Both the position numbers and the translations under genes were made by a program. The notes under the pieces are model-generated. The model ran no database searches and was not told where the DNA came from. It was given only the letters and a program-made list of their open reading frames with translations. This document shows positions 3,548-34,709 of a stretch of DNA of 35,523 bases, piece after piece; position 1 is the first letter of the stretch, and each line of letters begins with the position of its first letter. Source of the stretch: Candidatus Bathyarchaeota archaeon JdFR-07 (GTDB taxonomy: Archaea > Thermoproteota > Bathyarchaeia > Bathyarchaeales > Bathycorpusculaceae); the NCBI GenBank assembly GCA_002010975.1, contig MTLU01000017.1, positions 1-35,523 of the forward strand, read 5' to 3'.

Positions 3548-6070
3548 ATGTATACTGCACTAAAATATTCTACTAAGAACAATCTGTTGGTTGGTTTAGT
3601 TGTTTCCTTGCTTGCGTTTTCCGCCGTTTTTGGTGGATTGTTGCTAAATGGCACTCAATTGACAGCAAAGGCTCCAGTAAATATCTCAGGGATAGAAAAG
3701 ATTTCAATGAGTTTATTTGAGAATATTCGTTTAAACAGTCAAGAAAGCGTCAACGTGTTAATAGAAACTTTAGACATGAATTATAAAATAGTAAAAGCAG
3801 AAATCCTTAAACTGGGAGGGAATGTGCGATTCGAATTCAAATATGTTAAAGGATTAGCTGCTACTTTACCCGCTAACGCAATATTGAAGCTGGCAAGTAA
3901 CGAAAATATCAAGAAGATCTATCTAGACTCGCCGAGGTACCCTGCTCTTTCATCATTTAAGTCTATGCCTTTGGTGGATGGAGAGGAATTTCCCTTTGCT
4001 TTGGTAGACAGAAATGCTTTTGACGAGCGAAAGCATTTCAGTGGCGAGTCTCTTGATAAAGAATTTGTTCCCACAGTTGACCAAGTTGCTCCTTTAAACG
4101 ATGCTCTCACTATTACTTTGTCTCAAGAGCAAATTGAACTTTTGGAGCCCAGCACTTACTGGAATCCTTTTGCAATGGGTGCGATTGGTGCTTGGGCACT
4201 TGGAGACTACGGGCAAGGTTCTCTGGTTGTGGTTATTGATACAGGCATTTATGCTGATCATTTTATGCTTAGTGGCTCTGTTATAGGTGGGGTGGACTTA
4301 AGCCCTGACGTTGGAACATCATATGAAGGTTGGAACTTATCATCTAATCATTGGCACGGCACACATGTAGCGGGCATAATTGCTGGACATGGTGCTATCC
4401 TTGTTCATTCAAGCGATCTATTGTATCGATCAATTTCAACATATGCTATGCCCCCACAAGAGGCTTCTAGTTTTGGATATCCAGGTTACAAGATAATTCC
4501 GCTTCTTGGAATGGCGCCGTTGGCACAACTGTACGCCATAAAAGTCTTTCCGCACACCGGTGCCGGCGTGTCTGAATCTATAATTATTTCTGGAATTGAG
4601 TATGCTATCGAGTTGAAACTTAATGGAACTTATGATGTTGACGTCATCAGTATGAGTCTTGGAGGTCCCACATTGTTCGACGGTAGAGATCTAGAAGATA
4701 CTCTCGTTGATTATGCAACATCGGTAGGAATAACTGTGGTGGCAGCCGCTGGAAATGAAGGACCAGCATCGATGACTATTGGCAGTCCAGGTAGTGCTGA
4801 GTCGGCTATAACAGTAGCTGCGGCTGCACATCCTGTTAACACAAGAGTTTTCTGGGATTACGTTTACAATAGGCAGGGGTTAGGATGGCAATTATTCACT
4901 AGTGACACGCCACAAATTTACGCCTTTAGCAGTCGGGGGCCTACGTCTGATGGGCGTGAGAAACCTGACATTTCAGCAACTGGAATGTTTGTCCTGTCAT
5001 CCTACAACGAACCTGGTTGGCCTCAAGGCTTGGCCTTTGCTTCAGGCACTTCTATGGCTACTCCCGCTGTTTCTGGTGCTGTTGCGTTACTTAACACCTA
5101 TGCAGAAACTTTCATCCCAGCTGCATCCCCCCTGGATTACAAGCAAGCGATCAAAAATGGAGCTGAATGGCTTGAAGGATACGATAAATATGACCAAGGA
5201 GCAGGATATCTAAATGCTTACAATGCTTTAGTAGAACTTGTAGATGACCCTTCAATTGGAGACCTCTACCCGCTACTACCAAGCGAATACGAACTTGCTG
5301 ATATAACCAATATTCCGATAGTTGGAACAGGTGTATATGAAGATTCCATAGAGGGACTAAAACCAGGACTTAGCCAAGAATTTATATTCCAAGTTACTGA
5401 AGCTACAGACTCTATTAAACTTACCATAACCGATGTTATCTTAAATAAAAGAAATCCATATGACTTGAACAGTTTTGAAATCTACATCCAAAGCGCTAAA
5501 AGAACAATGTACGCGTACTGGATTGAAACGGCAAACGTTTGGGGCAATGCTCAGTTTATCATCACAGACTATAGCCAAACATGGTCAGGAGCAGTTACAG
5601 GCGTTTATCAACTTGATCCATACACTCTTAGAACTGCCATAGAACCTGGTTATGTTAAAATAGTTATTGAAAACGACTGGACAAGTTCCGGACCAATTTC
5701 ATGCAGTTTCAGAATAGAAGTAACAGCAGATCCAACAACACCAGACGAAACTTATTCAGGGAGCATTGATCAACATAAATGGATAGCTTTTGGAATATCT
5801 CCTCCAACAGGAACACAAAAAGTCACTCTAGAACTATGGTGGACTAATGACTGGAGCAAATATCCAACAAACGATCTAGACATGTACATCCAATGGTTTA
5901 ACGGAACAGACTGGGTCTTTGAACCCTTCATCGAAGGTGCCACACTAAACTCCCCCGAGAGGGTCGTGATAGAGGCGCCAGCGATAGGCAGTATATACGT
6001 CTATCTCTACGGGTACGCATTATGGACAGGTGTGTCGGAAGACTGGACTCTCGATCTATATTACGGCTAA
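3548..6070 (+). CDS. Secreted subtilisin-like serine protease (S8) with prodomain and C-terminal beta domains
   Basis: An 840-residue extracellular protease. Residues 12-34 form a signal or anchor helix. Residues 67-128 look like an I9-type prodomain (VNVLIETLD... LPANAILKLASNENIKKIYLDS). The S8 catalytic core follows with all key residues: Asp231 in VVVIDTG, His270 in HGTHVAG, oxyanion Asn403 in AAAGNEGPAS, and nucleophile Ser502 in GTSMATPAVSG. About 270 residues follow the core and appear to hold two beta-sandwich pre-peptidase C-type domains (near 590-720 and 735-840). There is no C-terminal anchor, so the mature enzyme is either free or held by its N-terminal helix. A ribosome site GAGGGAG lies upstream. 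The convergent neighbour resembles a subtilisin inhibitor. The natural substrate is unknown. Confidence 0.93.
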   Translation: MYTALKYSTKNNLLVGLVVSLLAFSAVFGGLLLNGTQLTAKAPVNISGIEKISMSLFENIRLNSQESVNVLIETLDMNYKIVKAEILKLGGNVRFEFKYVKGLAATLPANAILKLASNENIKKIYLDSPRYPALSSFKSMPLVDGEEFPFALVDRNAFDERKHFSGESLDKEFVPTVDQVAPLNDALTITLSQEQIELLEPSTYWNPFAMGAIGAWALGDYGQGSLVVVIDTGIYADHFMLSGSVIGGVDLSPDVGTSYEGWNLSSNHWHGTHVAGIIAGHGAILVHSSDLLYRSISTYAMPPQEASSFGYPGYKIIPLLGMAPLAQLYAIKVFPHTGAGVSESIIISGIEYAIELKLNGTYDVDVISMSLGGPTLFDGRDLEDTLVDYATSVGITVVAAAGNEGPASMTIGSPGSAESAITVAAAAHPVNTRVFWDYVYNRQGLGWQLFTSDTPQIYAFSSRGPTSDGREKPDISATGMFVLSSYNEPGWPQGLAFASGTSMATPAVSGAVALLNTYAETFIPAASPLDYKQAIKNGAEWLEGYDKYDQGAGYLNAYNALVELVDDPSIGDLYPLLPSEYELADITNIPIVGTGVYEDSIEGLKPGLSQEFIFQVTEATDSIKLTITDVILNKRNPYDLNSFEIYIQSAKRTMYAYWIETANVWGNAQFIITDYSQTWSGAVTGVYQLDPYTLRTAIEPGYVKIVIENDWTSSGPISCSFRIEVTADPTTPDETYSGSIDQHKWIAFGISPPTGTQKVTLELWWTNDWSKYPTNDLDMYIQWFNGTDWVFEPFIEGATLNSPERVVIEAPAIGSIYVYLYGYALWTGVSEDWTLDLYYG

Positions 6071-6265: not shown

Positions 6266-6781
6266 TCACATAGCATGTATACCTATATCAATGGTTGCTT
6301 CGGACTGTGTTTCCCCAGAAATGGCTTTAATGAAATAGGATCCCGGTTCAAGCAGCGATGTAGAATAGTTCAAATTTAATATTTCTTTTGAAGAGTACGG
6401 CTCAACCTTAACAGATGTTATCACGGGAATAAAAACATAATCTTTTGCATCGTAAATCTTTTCGAAAAACTCGCCGTCCTTGCTGTAGATCCATACGGAT
6501 CCATCAAAAACTTTAGATGTTCTAAAAGTTAAGGTAATAACCTCTTCTGTAGGATTGGCTAGACTTAAACTGATCAATGTATATTCTCCAACACTATAAC
6601 TAGTTTTATCCGTAGAAATCTGAAGTAACAAGCTTTCATTCCTCTTAAAAGCACCCTGACAAACAGAAACAAAGAAAAGAACTATTAACACAGAAAACCC
6701 CACAACAATATGAGCCTTTTGGAATTTTGTTCTATCAAACACCTGTCGTGCACAATAGAGAATATAAAGGCTGAAATGCAA
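6266..6781 (-). CDS. Membrane-anchored BsuPI-like (intracellular proteinase inhibitor family) protein
   Basis: A protein of up to 171 residues with one hydrophobic segment (about 24-42, AHIVVGFSVLIVLFFVSVC) and an extracellular beta domain. The domain (about 50-165) has the layout of BsuPI-type inhibitor domains: a strand with L-A-N-P-T-E-E-V-I-T-L-T-F, then S-x-x-x-F-D-G-S-V-W-I-Y-S-K-D-G-E-F-F, a hydrophobic-proline stretch, and a closing L-x-P-G-S-Y-F-I-K-A strand. Known members inhibit subtilisin-type proteases. It lies tail to tail with a secreted subtilase, so an anchored inhibitor or chaperone for that enzyme is a reasonable inference. The start is uncertain: TTG 6781 gives the full length, and GTG 6742 would give a neater signal peptide; neither has a good ribosome site. 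Confidence 0.6.
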   Translation of the reverse strand: MHFSLYILYCARQVFDRTKFQKAHIVVGFSVLIVLFFVSVCQGAFKRNESLLLQISTDKTSYSVGEYTLISLSLANPTEEVITLTFRTSKVFDGSVWIYSKDGEFFEKIYDAKDYVFIPVITSVKVEPYSSKEILNLNYSTSLLEPGSYFIKAISGETQSEATIDIGIHAM

Positions 6782-6982
6782 AAATTTCTGTTACTAACCC
6801 AACAGCGCACTTTTTCGCGGTCTGTTGAACATAACCTATCAAGTAAACATCATTAACAGGCATTTTAGCGGATACTTTTGATTTTCAAAGGATGAAGACA
6901 TACCATGTATTATTTTGTATAAAACAAATGAGAATTCTTGAGAAGTAGGTATTTAGTAGCGGGGGGTTGATTTGAACAACCG

Positions 6983-7006
6983 TTAGAGGCAGCCGAACAG
7001 GCTGCT
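6983..7006 (-). other. Non-canonical tRNA intron in the variable loop (24 nt)
   Basis: The RNA folds into an exact bulge-helix-bulge: outer CC/GG, central 4-bp helix AGAG/CUCU, 3-nt bulges AUA and AAC, and inner helix GCAGCC/GGCUGC closed by UGUUC. Cutting after the second base of each bulge removes 24 nt and restores AGAUC. Confidence 0.9.
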
Positions 7007-7016
7007 ATCTCTGGGT

Positions 7017-7037
7017 ATCTTAGAGCAATTTTGCTCT
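7017..7037 (-). other. Canonical tRNA intron at 37/38 (21 nt)
   Basis: Inner helix GAGCA/UGCUC with loop AAAU; central helix CUCA/UAAG has one C-A mismatch at C34; bulges UAA and AUA. Cutting after the second base of each bulge leaves CUCAUA-A, a standard anticodon loop with CAU. Confidence 0.85.
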
Positions 7038-7101
7038 TATGAGCCCAGCGGGTTAATCCTGGCTACCCCACCCCGCTACATTATGCTACAGCAGAACCAT
7101 T

Positions 7102-7113
7102 CTTAAATATTTT
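7102..7113 (-). promoter_or_regulatory. TATA box of the initiator tRNA gene
   Basis: Minus-strand AAATATTTAAGA is centred 30 bases before the tRNA 5' end at 7077, the expected place for an archaeal TATA box. The plus-strand gene at 7174 diverges from here. Confidence 0.55.
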
Positions 7114-7173: not shown

Positions 7174-7818
7174 ATGGATGAACCTTATCTTTATCAGATA
7201 TTCCGTCCAGTTTTTAAAAACCCAATTTTCGTTCAAGGGCTTCCAGGCTTTGGAAATGTGGGAAAAATAGCTGCATATCTTTTAGTAAAATTTTCTGGAG
7301 CAAAAATTTTTGCAGAGTTATATTCGCCTTCTTTCCCAGATTATATATCAGTCGATTCAAACGGTATTTGTCGCTTGCCAAAATACGAGTTTTATGCGGC
7401 TCATATGGAAAAGAACGATTTCATAATAATGACCGGAGATACGCAACCCTCTTTTGACGATGTAGTAGCGCATTACTGGGTTTGCAGTGAAATACTTGAA
7501 TTAGTAGAAAAATATGGTTGCACCTTCGTTGTAACAATTGGTGGTGTTCCAATAACCGATAAAAAAGTGCAGGTTTATGTGGCTGGAACTTCGCCAAGGC
7601 TTGCAAGAGAATTTATGGAAAAAGGGGCTGTAATCTACAGTAAAGGCAGAATTGTTGGAGCCACGGGGTTGACTTTGGCTCTTGCAAAAGAACGTGGTTT
7701 GGAGGGAATATGTCTCCTTGGATCGACAACGGGACTTAGCGCAGACAAGGCTGCTGGTTTTGCCGTTTTCAAGTTTCTCATGAAAGCTTTAGGGAATGAG
7801 GTGAAGGAAGGGTTATAA
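7174..7818 (+). CDS. PAC2-family protein (proteasome assembly chaperone 2 superfamily)
   Basis: A 214-residue protein of the archaeal PAC2 family (COG1938/2047 type). Near the N-terminus it shows the typical GLPGFGNVGKIAAYLLVKFSGAKIFAELYSPSFPDY, then an IIMTGDTQPS strand-loop, a CTFVVTIGGVP segment and a late GATGLTLALAKERGLEGICLLGSTTG. Eukaryotic relatives help assemble the proteasome alpha ring; the archaeal proteins have been proposed to do the same or to bind a nucleotide, but their role is not settled. No ribosome site is visible, so a leaderless mRNA is likely. A small membrane protein follows 40 bases downstream, probably in the same transcript. Confidence 0.88.
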   Translation: MDEPYLYQIFRPVFKNPIFVQGLPGFGNVGKIAAYLLVKFSGAKIFAELYSPSFPDYISVDSNGICRLPKYEFYAAHMEKNDFIIMTGDTQPSFDDVVAHYWVCSEILELVEKYGCTFVVTIGGVPITDKKVQVYVAGTSPRLAREFMEKGAVIYSKGRIVGATGLTLALAKERGLEGICLLGSTTGLSADKAAGFAVFKFLMKALGNEVKEGL

Positions 7819-34635: not shown

Positions 34636-34709
34636 AGCCTCGGGCGGGCCTTGATCCCGCGACCTACGGCTTACAAGGCCGTTGCTCTACCAGACTGAGC
34701 TACCGAGGC
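34636..34709 (-). tRNA. tRNA-Thr (UGU)
   Basis: A 74-nt tRNA with acceptor GCCUCGG/CCGAGGC, D-arm GCUC...GAGC, anticodon stem ACGGC/GCCGU around CUUGUAA (anticodon UGU), and T-arm CGGG-AUCAAGG-CCCG type. Discriminator U, as in many archaeal tRNA-Thr. No intron is present and CCA is not encoded. A TATA-like TGCATATTTC (read in the genome as GAAATATGCA, 34728-34737) lies about 25 bases upstream. Confidence 0.95.

Follow-up and report, generated by a model that had tools for sequence, protein, structure and literature searches.

The window, the whole 35,523-nucleotide stretch of Bathyarchaeon DNA that was analysed, contains what is very probably a functional initiator tRNA-Met gene, interrupted by two bulge-helix-bulge introns that are predicted to be spliced by an (alpha-beta)2 endonuclease (EndA) and RtcB. 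The gene lies on the minus strand, with nucleotide 1 of the tRNA at 7077 and the discriminator A73 at 6957, and reads AGCGGGGTGGGGTAGCCAGGATTAACCCGCTGGGCTCATA-[AGAGCAAAATTGCTCTAAGAT]-ACCCAGAGAT-[AGCAGCCTGTTCGGCTGCCTCTAA]-CGGTTGTTCAAATCAACCCCCCGCTA (introns in brackets). Exon 1 (nucleotides 1-37; 7038..7077) carries the CAU anticodon at 7041..7039 and equals the corresponding part of the initiator gene in G035 and G011, two relatives in which it is intronless. It is followed by a 21-nt intron between nucleotides 37 and 38 (7017..7037), exon 2 (nucleotides 38-47; 7007..7016), a 24-nt intron in the variable loop between nucleotides 47 and 48 (6983..7006) and exon 3 (nucleotides 48-73; 6957..6982), all on the minus strand, with exons 2 and 3 delimited by alignment to the intronless relatives. 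The coordinates of the gene and the lengths and sites of both introns were given correctly in an earlier note on this DNA, and the intronless homologues agree with them. By sequence reading, a TATA-like box (AAAATATTTAAG; 7102..7113, minus strand) precedes nucleotide 1 by about 30 nt, a spacing that would suit a transcript with almost no leader or none at all. The gene adjoins a divergent neighbour encoding a PAC2-family protein (7174..7818, plus strand); a similar start is also found beside the initiator gene of a relative (G042, L082), suggesting an orthologous locus. Elsewhere in the window, a large predicted subtilase (Peptidase_S8) occupies 3548-6070 on the plus strand, and an ORF resembling the intracellular proteinase inhibitor BsuPI lies at 6266-6781 on the opposite strand.

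Once both introns are removed, 76 nt remain, and these agree at 76 of 76 positions with the initiator tRNA genes of G035 and G011, which have no introns. This identity is the strongest evidence, because both exon boundaries are fixed without any motif model, and it bears out the earlier claim that a normal 76-nt initiator tRNA results. The defining features of initiator tRNAs are the CAU anticodon, the A1-U72 pair and three G-C pairs at 29-31/39-41, all of which are present here; in the spliced tRNA, the stems that were checked pair at 7/7 (acceptor), 5/5 (anticodon) and 5/5 (T-stem) positions. A pseudogene or decaying copy, with the real initiator tRNA encoded in the third of the genome that lacks sequence, could be proposed on the grounds that the genome is 64.6% complete, that two copies of the initiator gene occur in a few relatives, and that standard finders miss the gene: in the window, ARAGORN and Rfam (at the gathering cut-off) each report only a tRNA-Thr at 34636-34709. 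However, the exons are undecayed and agree with intact genes at each of their 76 nt, both introns keep an exact splice geometry, the intron type has been kept in four genera, and where a relative has two initiator copies (G008) both carry the same intron. Another intact initiator gene, which the earlier note had named, together with the lack of a spliced product, as refuting its reading, was searched for in the available part of the genome and was not found. Decay of the gene is thus very unlikely, and a functional initiator gene is the preferred reading.

The earlier note held that both introns fit the bulge-helix-bulge rule. The rule, two 3-nt bulges set apart by a 4-bp helix, is followed strictly by the 47/48 intron: with each cut placed between the second and third bulge nucleotides, exon AGAG (nucleotides 42-45) and intron CUCU form four of four pairs, as the note had described, and the bulges are AU|A and AA|C. 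In the 37/38 intron the motif is of a relaxed form, in which CUCA (nucleotides 32-35) and UAAG form three of four pairs (C-G, U-A, a C.A mismatch and A-U); the mismatch counts against the proposed reading. The 47/48 intron allows a single register, and the 37/38 intron can be read in two, both of which give an identical product. The relaxed 37/38 motif is also present in many relatives. The combination of the central helix and a 6-bp intron hairpin was reached in 7 of 200,000 shuffles for the 37/38 intron and in 5 of 200,000 for the 47/48 intron. As a small and related sample, with rows trimmed to the junctions, the six distinct 47/48 junctions provide support rather than proof: every helix cell is paired, nucleotide 42 covaries with its intron partner (A-U, G-C, U-A), and sliding the helix by 1-3 columns leaves pairing in only 17-54% of the cells. 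The 24-nt insert, with its 6-bp hairpin at a site where long arms occur, might alternatively be a long variable arm of the class II tRNA kind that stays in the mature molecule. Initiator tRNAs, however, belong to class I; relatives have a normal 5-nt variable loop between identical flanks, and these flanks build a bulge-helix-bulge that covaries at nucleotide 42, a feature for which a retained arm has no need. A retained arm is therefore extremely improbable, and the insert is best regarded as an intron.

The variable-loop intron of the window gene is not a one-off. The pattern GAGATAGC..GCYTCYAACGGT was found in 4 of 163 genomes of the order, each time in an initiator gene, and the four span three families: the genome of the window, Candidatus Bathyarchaeota ILS 300 (G076, WUQV01000212), Candidatus Bathyarchaeota BA2 (G102, LIHK01000023) and Candidatus Bathyarchaeota 8_1_July_SF_Bin33 (G112, JAOUMI010000015). 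The type of 47/48 intron common to these four genomes is AGCAG...CTGCCTCYAA. Eight genomes of another order of the same class (f10) have an unlike 47/48 intron (TGRTCGA...CCTCAAG) together with a T-loop intron. An origin of the 47/48 intron by transposition from another tRNA of the same genomes was rejected; the core pattern occurs in the initiator gene only. The genome of the window is a fragmented draft of 43 contigs, in which an assembly chimera or a sequencing artefact might be suspected; the probability of this is negligible, given that three separately assembled genomes besides this one carry the same intron type in the same place and that the exon-intron pairing is exact. A genuine intron remains the preferred reading.

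The earlier note predicted a splicing endonuclease of broad specificity and proposed a check of its subunit type. Two PF01974 genes are found in the genome (C7:29825-30070, minus strand, and C4:33676-33930, plus strand), as in most relatives, and an RtcB gene was also found. The first of these, the alpha subunit (L160), keeps the catalytic Tyr, His and Lys (Y122, H130 and K161) and is closest to the catalytic subunits of Sulfolobus (structure 2cv8) and Aeropyrum pernix (3p1z, chain B); its residues K39-P40-K41 align with K44-P45-R46 of the Crenarchaea-specific loop of the A. pernix enzyme, a loop marked by a conserved Lys and, after it, Pro or Val and then Lys or Arg. The second, the beta subunit (L161), is without the catalytic His. 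In this genome and its relatives, every alpha subunit examined has the Crenarchaea-specific loop, and every beta subunit examined is without both the loop and the His. To judge from these alignments, the two genes code for the two halves of a splicing endonuclease of the crenarchaeal (alpha-beta)2 type, and broad specificity is the corresponding prediction; reviews associate enzymes of this type with relaxed motifs and with introns at varied positions (PMC6379350, PMC12397907).

In the mechanism that we propose, the precursor would be transcribed from the TATA-like promoter, the (alpha-beta)2 EndA with its Crenarchaea-specific loop would cut within the 3-nt bulges of both motifs (37/38 and 47/48), and RtcB would ligate the exons into a standard 76-nt initiator tRNA. 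The helix of the 47/48 motif occupies nucleotides 42-45, and the two lowest pairs of the anticodon stem (27-43 and 28-42) must therefore open; as a consequence, splicing at 37/38 and at 47/48 would compete and is probably ordered. Neighbouring introns are known to sometimes need sequential removal (PMC8450103). In the predicted folds, removal of intron 2 alone gives a cloverleaf with the 37/38 hairpin, while after removal of intron 1 alone the D-arm remains paired with intron 2; an order in which the 47/48 intron is spliced first is therefore preferred and, going by folding energies alone, is the most likely one. When the whole precursor is folded freely, the minimum-energy structure (-52.2 kcal/mol) has the D-arm paired with intron 2, and the fold in which both motifs are formed is weaker (-43.7 kcal/mol), which counts against the proposed explanation.

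Introns are also present in other tRNAs of this genome, and the initiator is therefore not a special case in it. Anticodon-loop introns are found in tRNA-Lys, tRNA-Ser and the elongator tRNA-Met (isotypes and sites read by eye). Two further genes, both read by eye and both missed by ARAGORN, are a tRNA-Leu(CAA) with inserts in the D-loop and the anticodon loop (L024, C3:13339-13467) and a probable tRNA-Val(UAC) with an intron near nucleotide 26 (L021, C11:5217-5317). The latter was also considered as a case of a variable-loop intron, a reading that was rejected in favour of the tRNA-Val(UAC); this gene was searched for an exact register that gives a full helix, and none was found.

To place the window gene in its class, 120 initiator genes of the Bathyarchaeia, which are not a random sample, were split into exons and introns: 52 have no intron, 48 have one, 17 have two, one has three and two have four. 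The introns are located at 37/38 (47 genes), 59/60 (19), 4/5 (13), 47/48 (12) and in the D-loop (2), where all 4/5 sites and the 47/48 and 59/60 sites of f10 were set by sequence and motif, as the automatic aligner misplaced or missed several. The two genes with four introns are those of BA2 (L184), with introns at 4/5, 37/38, 47/48 and 59/60, and of ILS 300 (L133), with introns in the D-loop and at 37/38 (where the helix is weak), 47/48 and 59/60. Removal of all four introns from either gene gives a 75-nt tRNA with full acceptor, anticodon and T stems. Four is one above the maximum of three introns given for archaeal tRNAs by tRNAscan-SE 2.0 and two reviews (PMC8450103, PMC4033280, PMC3218864), and a search of the open-access literature for four-intron archaeal tRNAs or Bathyarchaeial tRNA introns found nothing relevant. 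A search with an anticodon-arm pattern for hyper-intronic genes, in the genomes without a BLAST match, gave matches of which the eight examined are not tRNA genes. Among individual genes, the initiator tRNA of G015 (L134) has a 55-nt intron in the D-loop, where introns are otherwise rare in this set, and G008 has two initiator copies (L136, L034) on a single contig, with identical introns.

In the family of BA2 (f6), 13 of the 20 genes examined have an intron between nucleotides 4 and 5, in the acceptor stem (L184 of BA2, L185 of G112, L169 and L174-L183). In the central helix of this motif, leader nucleotides together with A1-G2 pair with the intron (GTAG/CTAT and variants), and the outer helix, ACC/GGT, is formed by the leader and the region after the cut. 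Seven pairs of the motif are kept in 97% of the cells, with one compensatory change; most of the pairs never vary, so that the count alone is weak. All 13 intron-containing genes have GCGGGG shortly before the exon, nearly always as TGGCGGGG, a near-copy of the 5' acceptor strand that is absent from the seven f6 genes examined that have no 4/5 intron. In predicted folds of twelve precursors this leader copy pairs at 6/6 positions with the 3' acceptor strand, and a temporary acceptor stem is inferred from this pairing. It seems rather more probable than otherwise that the Bathyarchaeial initiator tRNA gene is a hot spot for the gain of introns, which use five sites and reach four in one gene, and that in the BA2 family the leader copy acts as a temporary acceptor stem until the true one is restored by splicing. 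In two genomes without the 4/5 intron (G106 and G116), ACCGT/ACCAT persists immediately ahead of the gene, which suggests that the intron was lost. For the BA2 family, a reading with a 7/8 intron starting from an upstream GGCGGGG was considered and rejected, as no helix matches it and the tRNA would have G1.U72 rather than A1-U72. The introns of the window gene itself are of a known archaeal kind, and the four-intron relatives and the leader copy of the acceptor strand are the more surprising observations.

The start of translation in the Bathyarchaeia appears to depend on the correct, and probably ordered, splicing of up to four introns. Within the class, what appears to be one orthologous gene ranges naturally from no intron to four, always alongside a single type of endonuclease, which makes the gain and loss of tRNA introns, and the effect of the Crenarchaea-specific loop on substrate range, testable. 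Common tRNA finders miss such genes, and genomes may consequently seem, wrongly, to be without an initiator tRNA.

The earlier note set the gene against the multiple introns of the Thermoproteales, a context that needs adjusting, as the host is a Bathyarchaeon and such introns are common in its class. The resemblance to the Thermoproteales (Pyrobaculum, Thermofilum) lies in the small introns at 37/38 combined with others in the D-, V- and T-arms, and in an (alpha-beta)2 EndA with the Crenarchaea-specific loop; the differences are the Bathyarchaeial host, the initiator tRNA, the 47/48 site and the four introns reached in relatives, as against three (PMC8450103, PMC4033280, PMC3218864). The tRNA-Thr(GGU) of Caldiarchaeum subterraneum, with introns at 24/25 and 45/46, likewise combines a variable-arm intron with a second intron outside the Thermoproteales, but it is another tRNA with another site and is linked to a mobile element (PMC3293823); in an unsystematic look, no element of this sort was noticed next to the window gene. 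Disruption of the essential initiator tRNA gene has precedents in the split initiator of Nanoarchaeum equitans and the permuted initiator of Thermofilum pendens, which are rejoined through bulge-helix-bulge motifs at 37/38 and 59/60 (PMC3218864); unlike these, the window gene would give one contiguous transcript, with its introns in cis.
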